DNA of 34,445 nt. Source: Bacteroidota bacterium (GTDB taxonomy: Bacteria; Bacteroidota; Bacteroidia; B-17B0; Aurantibacillaceae). The notes beneath the pieces were generated by a model. The model was given only the letters and a program-made list of their open reading frames with translations. It made no database searches and was not told the origin of the DNA. The stretch covers positions 1 to 34,445 of the forward strand of contig CANLAV010000008.1 in the NCBI GenBank assembly GCA_947487905.1, written 5' to 3'. Shown piece by piece: positions 20,871-22,174 of the stretch; within the stretch, counting starts at the first letter, position 1, and the number at the start of each line of letters is the position of its first letter. The translations under genes and the position numbers were made by a program.

Positions 20871-21800
20871 ATGAAAACAAATTTCATCATACGTAGTATT
20901 TTTTTCTTAATATGTGCTCAACAAATAAATGCACAGGTTAATAATTACCTTATTAATCAACCCGTTTGGAAAATAAGCAGCACATGTTCTGTGTCTTATC
21001 CTTGCGTACAACAAGAAACCTACAATTATTACACCAATGGTGACACGCTATTTAATACATTAGTGTATAAAAAAATAGTTAAAAAAGGTTACGGTTATTA
21101 CAGTTGGATGGCAATGCCACCGGCCTCACCGGGTTGTAATGGTTCTTACAATTATAACTACACTTCGCCTTGGTATTTTATTAGATCGGCTGGAAAAAAA
21201 ATGTTCTTGAGGCAACCAGCAGATAAAAGCGAGTATTTATTATACGATTTTAATTTATTGGTTGGCGATACCTTACCTGTTTCCTACAACAATTACGCAA
21301 CGGATATTACCGTTACAGCCATTGATAGCATTTACACCTCATCAGGTTATAGAAAACGATTTCAATTAGCTGGAGGTACTTGGTCTACTTATTTATTAGA
21401 AGGCATTGGACATTCAAAAGGATTAGTTGAGCCAATGAATTTTCCATTAGAATGTGGTTACAATTTAGATTGTTACAGTTTAAACGATTCCGCCTATTAT
21501 CCAATAGTTGGTGCGGCCTGCAATATCAATGTTGGACTGCAAACCTATCCACGCCAAAAAGGGTGTTTTGTATTTCCAAATCCAATGCAAACGCATACAA
21601 CGTTTCAATTTAATACTTACTTGAATCATGCTGATATTAGTATTTACAATCAGGTAGGCCAACTCATAAAATCCATACATAATCTTTCAGGTCAATCCTA
21701 CAACATAGAACCTGGCCTTTTAAGTGAAGGGATTTATTTTTACGATATAAAAGAGCAAGGCCAACCTTTTGCATCTGGCAAGCTAATTGTTATGCAGTAA
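20871..21800 (+). CDS. T9SS type A sorting domain-containing secreted protein
   Basis: Signal peptide MKTNFIIRSIFFLICAQQINAQ; C-terminal GCFVFPNPMQTHTTFQFN...SEGIYFYDIKEQGQPFASGKLIVMQ. Confidence 0.85.
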   Translation: MKTNFIIRSIFFLICAQQINAQVNNYLINQPVWKISSTCSVSYPCVQQETYNYYTNGDTLFNTLVYKKIVKKGYGYYSWMAMPPASPGCNGSYNYNYTSPWYFIRSAGKKMFLRQPADKSEYLLYDFNLLVGDTLPVSYNNYATDITVTAIDSIYTSSGYRKRFQLAGGTWSTYLLEGIGHSKGLVEPMNFPLECGYNLDCYSLNDSAYYPIVGAACNINVGLQTYPRQKGCFVFPNPMQTHTTFQFNTYLNHADISIYNQVGQLIKSIHNLSGQSYNIEPGLLSEGIYFYDIKEQGQPFASGKLIVMQ

Positions 21801-21809
21801 AAAGAGCGA

Positions 21810-22028
21810 AGGTTAGAACAACATCAAAATGGTGAAGGTGCTAATCATACAAAAAAACATTTGCCTGTTACGTTATTGTATTACGAAGAATATCCAAGAA
21901 TAGATGAAGCTTTTTACCGCGAAAAACAAGTACAAGGTTGGAGTAGAAAAAAGAAAGAAGCGTTGATAGAAGGCAACAGTAATTTATTACCAGAATTAGC
22001 AATAGCTTACAGAGATTTGAAAAAGTAG
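21810..22028 (+). pseudogene. 5'-truncated GIY-YIG nuclease family remnant
   Basis: Open frame without its N-terminal GIY-YIG half: RLEQHQNGEGANHTKKHLPVTLLYYEEYPRIDEAFYREKQVQGWSRKKKEALIEGNSNLLPELAIAYRDLKK*; not in the supplied ORF list. Confidence 0.85.
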
Positions 22029-22055
22029 GGTTTTACTTTTTAGTGTCTGAGGAAC

Positions 22056-22082
22056 CGTTGACTTCGAGAACCTCAGTCAACG
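22056..22082 (+). repeat. REP-like hairpin A
   Basis: CGTTGACT-TCGAGAACCTC-AGTCAACG: perfect 8-bp stem, 11-nt loop. Confidence 0.8.
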
Positions 22083-22103
22083 TTTGGTGGATGAGGCTCA
22101 CGA

Positions 22104-22130
22104 TGGTAGCTGAGGGACTCGAAGCCACCA
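22104..22130 (-). repeat. REP-like hairpin B, inverted relative to A
   Basis: TGGTAGCT-GAGGGACTCGA-AGCCACCA: 8-bp stem with one mismatch; reverse-complement loop TCGAGTCCCTC matches the hairpin A loop at 9/11. Confidence 0.8.
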
Positions 22131-22131
22131 T

Positions 22132-22174
22132 AAAAAAAGAGCGAAGCTGAAACCTCAACTTCGCTCTTTTTTTT
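22132..22174. terminator. Bidirectional terminator between convergent genes
   Basis: AAAAAGAGCGAAG-ctgaaacctcaa-CTTCGCTCTTTTTTTT. Confidence 0.9.

Follow-up and report, generated by a model that had tools for sequence, protein, structure and literature searches.

REP-like DNA hairpins with a putative cognate GIY-YIG nuclease, surviving as a relic at a Bacteroidota locus

The locus raises the question of what two short inverted hairpins are, where they come from, and whether the broken nuclease gene beside them belongs to the same system. The window (the whole stretch of DNA that was analysed, 34,445 nucleotides) carries the following features in this region, the hairpins and the terminator being located between convergent genes:

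21799-21811 (+) and 22134-22146: 13-bp direct repeat AAAAAGAGCGAAG, the second copy lying in the terminator arm
21801-22028, plus strand: what remains of a GIY-YIG endonuclease gene of the single-domain type, truncated at its N-terminus (Pfam PF01541)
22056-22082, plus strand: hairpin A, CGTTGACT-TCGAGAACCTC-AGTCAACG, core CTTCGAGAACCTCAG
22085-22103, minus strand: degenerate 3' half-copy of hairpin B, TCGTGAGCCTCATCCACCA, recognised by sequence inspection
22104-22130, minus strand: hairpin B, TGGTGGCT-TCGAGTCCCTC-AGCTACCA, core CTTCGAGTCCCTCAG, stem with one G.T wobble
22132-22173, no strand assigned: inverted repeat resembling an intrinsic terminator and flanked on both sides by A/T tracts, apart from the hairpins and shared with the downstream minus-strand gene

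The original prediction of two hairpins with 8-bp stems and 11-nt loops, the loops agreeing at nine of eleven positions, was confirmed from the sequence. Two details had to be corrected. The pair does lie within the proposed extent, 22047-22130, the start of which is 9 bp outside the stem, and the mismatch announced for hairpin B is the wobble rather than a true mismatch. Absent from the original prediction were the truncated GIY-YIG gene immediately upstream and the half-copy at 22085-22103. The inverted REP/BIME-like layout with a fixed core is not due to chance, since exact CTTCGAGNNCCTCAG was found twice in the window, in A and B only, and never in 100 dinucleotide shuffles. Furthermore, a covariance model from which both hairpins had been left out matched only A and B in the window, at 40.1 bits (E 4e-9) and 34.1 bits (E 2e-7), respectively. 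When folded as single-stranded DNA, both hairpins were more stable than shuffled sequences (z of -4.2 and -3.4 for A and B, respectively). The half-copy at 22085-22103 is placed on the 3' side of hairpin B, within the spacer between A and B.

As the site lies between convergent genes and near a terminator, and as an RNA hairpin would form, the repeats could act as RNA, by terminating or attenuating transcription of the adjacent genes or by stabilising their mRNA. We regard this explanation as very improbable: the hairpins are not followed by a T-tract and are found in both orientations, a separate terminator is present at 22132-22173, no Rfam match was obtained anywhere in the window, and the linkage to a nuclease gene and the matching of X/X' classes described below would be left unexplained. 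A search of NCBIfam returned nothing specific.

The GIY-YIG remnant, whose 3' end is 27 bp upstream of hairpin A, aligns with positions 24-76 of PF01541 (E 9e-9) and shares 84% identity with the intact protein encoded in a relative (genome G068, locus L103). Its first ~19 residues are gone, and with them the two tyrosine motifs of the catalytic site, MYIL and YYTG. The direct repeat AAAAAGAGCGAAG brackets the remnant together with the hairpins, and the break in the gene falls inside the repeat, which is either a microhomology junction or a target duplication. The intact relatives are single-domain GIY-YIG proteins of ~92 residues, with conservation at the catalytic positions Y, R22 and E59. 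The AlphaFold model of the nuclease (pLDDT 86.7) has the GIY-YIG fold, and its best matches in the PDB are the UPF0213 structures 1zg2 and 1ywl, followed by weaker matches to the GIY-YIG domains of I-TevI and UvrC.

In the host genome, eight copies of the hairpin were detected with the covariance model at E < 0.01, that is about 8 clear, scattered hairpins, and the exact GAGNNCC core occurs at five sites. These copies are mostly intergenic; one is inside a valyl-tRNA synthetase gene and another, an in-frame 18-bp tandem, in a probable methionyl-tRNA synthetase gene (both named by reading the translation). An in-frame 18-bp tandem made of the hairpin loop and 3' half was seen at ~1480-1527 of L217 (host contig C60), in a tRNA synthetase-like coding sequence. 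Copies of the Flavo-1 RNA (RF01705) lie beside or around hairpins in L005 (1211-1309 and 1052-1142) and L220 (1398-1477 and 1550-1629), on host contigs C152 and C49, respectively; in L005, the hairpin falls within the span of one Flavo-1 match. No Y1_Tnp match was obtained in the host genome, and a search of its 95%-complete assembly for intact relatives of the nuclease was negative. The host-genome system is a relic, with some eight hairpins, a dead nuclease gene and no Y1 transposase.

The many copies that had been expected are found in the relatives. CTTCGANNNNCTCAG is present in 70 of 87 genomes of the host's family, with up to 82 copies per genome, compared with 0-3 for a reversed control pattern in the same genome set. 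The family core reads CT-TCGA-X-NR-X'-CTC-AG and is enclosed by a stem that is variable yet complementary. Among 343 unique cores, picked by core alone so that outer pairing was not a criterion, the loop pair X/X' covaries, being G-C, C-G or T-A in 328 (GC 258, CG 57, TA 13). In the same cores, stem pair 3 is paired in 93% of cases, against 42% in shuffles, and pair 4 in 92% against 57%; all four Watson-Crick types occur in the stem, with pairing well above that of shuffles. X and X', at positions 7 and 10 of the core, are not placed symmetrically about the axis of the stem; their pairing would therefore not be explained by a double-stranded dyad, but would be by a folded strand. The covariation score was 0.786 against 0.173 for shuffled alignments in a diverse subset chosen for hairpins, a selection that inflates the score. 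For 23 sites of one genome chosen by core alone, it was 0.355 against 0.124 for shuffled sites, with a maximum of 0.132 when slid. Thus, the compensatory stem changes foreseen in the original prediction exist both across relatives and within one genome. Its intergenic placement holds as well: 20 of 24 sites in G068 are outside ORFs, and 83% of random positions fall inside ORFs. A literature search for the literal motif found no report of it, and one for GIY-YIG together with REP found nothing useful.

Closeness to GIY-YIG genes had also been named as a point to check, and the linkage proved to be tight in relatives, the gene of the host being the dead remnant. In G068, the intact nuclease gene is inside an array of eight hairpins. 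At all 80 GTDB loci of the nuclease subfamily (subfamily A), a hairpin was present within 700 bp, with the exact core in 72 cases and a variant core in 8; the variants were TCGRCTNCGCTC with a 12-nt loop, TCGGGAGCCTC, or a closing pair T-A in place of C-G. Hairpin density at the GTDB loci is ~4/kb beside the gene and, beyond 1 kb, mostly at or below ~0.3/kb. The training set of model R1 consisted in part of hairpins from the same loci. In genomes of the host's family that possess the nuclease gene, hairpins were found at 17 of 17 loci; the control with other GIY-YIG subfamilies gave 0 of 23.

These repeats could be classical REP/BIME elements moved by a RAYT transposase (Y1/HuH TnpA-REP), the GIY-YIG gene being a mere neighbour. 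Inverted pairs, intergenic location, covarying stems and a gene flanked by its own repeats do correspond to the description of REPtrons (PMC6006769). Yet the host genome lacks a Y1_Tnp match, a hairpin was found at only 1 of 31 loci of Y1_Tnp, the REP-type transposase, in the family in which all 17 loci of the GIY-YIG gene had one, and the GT[AG]G foot at the 5' stem base is not conserved in the hairpin alignments. On these three grounds, mobilisation by RAYT is mostly refuted, and we give it very little credence. The REP label is therefore kept for the inverted layout and the covarying stem and abandoned in its strict RAYT sense.

The core type of the hairpins tracks the nuclease tree. Presence or absence of hairpins requires 8 changes on the tree (shuffled mean 33.3), the GNRC core 20 changes (shuffled 47.0) and the CNRG core 8 changes (shuffled 14.5), and in each case none of 500 shuffles was as low; the tree comprises 146 proteins and 75 columns with weak support, and near-copies and shared hosts add to the clustering. 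A second GIY-YIG group (L077, L081, L194, L199, L206 and L208) is accompanied by a C..G core. Inside subfamily A, the core class switches several times, which implies that the specificity is loose or fast-changing. A core with a 12-nt loop (CTNCG) was also observed with further GIY-YIG subgroups (L189, L193, L198, L039, L042 and L192), some of the stems being shorter; the pairing between repeat and nuclease is thus wider than subfamily A. Some genomes have GAGNNCC hairpins and no detected subfamily-A nuclease (e.g. G010, with 7 sites).

Relatives turned up in 42 plasmid and 23 phage records, every one of them below 60% identity, so that they provide no evidence of carriage of subfamily A by phage or plasmid. 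The unit of nuclease and hairpins was also seen in metagenome-assembled genomes labelled Planctomycetota (L110), Fibrobacterota (L119), Spirochaetota (L138) and Chloroflexota (L174), as a result of either horizontal transfer or binning errors.

The arrangement of the repeats near the gene was analysed in 181 neighbouring hairpin pairs: 90 were '+-', 27 '-+', 43 '++' and 21 '--', inverted pairs in the orientation of the window ('+-') being the commonest. The partial copies around full hairpins are polar. Upstream, they are 5' halves (28 in 22 loci), and downstream they are 3' halves (50 in 39 loci), mostly within ~25 nt of the full hairpin, and none was found in shuffled flanks. Only two halves in each direction lie on the wrong side at less than 20 nt; the other wrong-side halves are ~30-50 nt away. 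The identity of a half-copy to its full hairpin tends to stop within the loop. In the window, one 3' half of this polar type accompanies hairpin B. Such half-copies are possibly traces of breaks in the loop, replication slippage being an alternative origin. They would be the footprint of what may be called a 'GIY-YIG REPtron', in which a widespread Bacteroidota nuclease would cut the loops of its own hairpin repeat, and the breaks would be the places where halves duplicate and new hairpins insert, so that genome-wide spread of a REP-like family would be driven by a GIY-YIG enzyme that is no transposase. We put this forward as a speculative proposal, with a modest chance of being correct.

Since hairpins bracket the nuclease gene at many loci, and since the copies in the window and in G082, the closest relative with the gene, decay jointly, nuclease and hairpins could constitute one small mobile element, with the hairpins as its ends and no separate life. 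This is unlikely: most hairpins are found without the gene (68 GAGNNCC sites for one subfamily-A gene in G068), and the ends and the spacing vary.

In G082, the same intergenic site holds only the last ~14 codons of the nuclease and a hairpin accompanied by two partial copies in tandem, whereas the other members of the genus examined mostly have a terminator, without hairpin, at this position. This comparison indicates that the nuclease-hairpin unit probably predates the split between the host and G082 species and is now decaying. The upstream neighbour is a gene with a T9SS-type C-terminus in the host and a fumarylacetoacetate-hydrolase-like gene in G082; the host counterpart of the latter is on contig C74, beside another hairpin. 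When L003/L213 (host C74) are compared with L246 (G082), the fumarylacetoacetate-hydrolase-like gene is by a hairpin in both, with different partners. The difference in neighbours suggests a rearrangement that may have had its break points at hairpins.

We consider it likely that the hairpins form a dispersed REP-like DNA family whose cognate protein is the ~92-residue GIY-YIG nuclease, with cutting and spread as its proposed activities and a relic at the present locus. The association described above suggests that the nuclease recognises and cuts the hairpins, and it may help them to spread. The repeat would fold when its strand is single, during lagging-strand replication, DNA uptake or repair. 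The nuclease would then recognise the X-X' pair together with the fixed TCGA/CTC internal loop and cut the hairpin, probably in or beside the loop. Repair of the cut, or strand joining at it, would duplicate hairpins and spread them round the gene and to sites between genes. At the present locus, the nuclease has lost its catalytic N-terminus, and of the system only the hairpin pair is left.

The same pairing of nuclease and hairpin, with a different purpose, is assumed if the hairpins are targets of a GIY-YIG nuclease that controls DNA uptake or foreign single-stranded DNA, as is reported for Ssn/NTS of Neisseria, their spread being a by-product. This explanation has a fair claim to attention without being the probable one; it is favoured by the protein superfamily and by the repeat/nuclease pairing, both of which are the same. 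With a dispersed hairpin family and its cognate nuclease as the preferred reading, a very common type of Bacteroidota repeat (TTCGA...CTCAG) gains an enzyme that is likely to be its cognate partner and whose family is not counted among the transposases. If this is true, GIY-YIG nucleases can drive REP-like repeat families, and the natural series of core variants matched to protein lineages offers a ready specificity code with which to test sequence- and structure-specific single-strand cutting.

Among known systems, REPtrons associate REP/BIME repeats with RAYT (TnpA-REP, Y1 HuH) transposases (PMC6006769, PMC3733652). The present hairpins resemble them as short extragenic hairpins with a fixed core, a covarying stem and inverted pairs, as well as by the presence of the repeats on both sides of their cognate nuclease gene and by occasional in-frame insertions in linkers. 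They differ in that the linked gene encodes a GIY-YIG rather than a Y1 HuH enzyme, in a host without RAYT, and in that the GT[AG]G foot is missing, the fixed sequence being in the loop here and at the stem foot in REPs. The different enzyme and the missing foot place the hairpin system outside the REP/RAYT family. Our inference is a REPtron-like system with a GIY-YIG enzyme at its centre, probably a structure-specific single-strand nuclease.

I-TevI-type homing endonucleases have the fold of the catalytic domain in common with the nuclease, but here there is no intron and no separate DNA-binding domain, and the putative target is a multicopy hairpin. The best matches in both sequence and structure are the single-domain GIY-YIG proteins of the UPF0213/YhbQ type (1zg2, 1ywl), for which we know of no repeat partner or substrate. 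Finally, a Neisseria study (Nat Commun, 2025) reportedly describes Ssn, a GIY-YIG site-specific single-strand nuclease paired with the NTS repeats. By this description, both systems combine a small GIY-YIG protein with dispersed repeats, and Ssn/NTS of Neisseria is probably the nearest known system.
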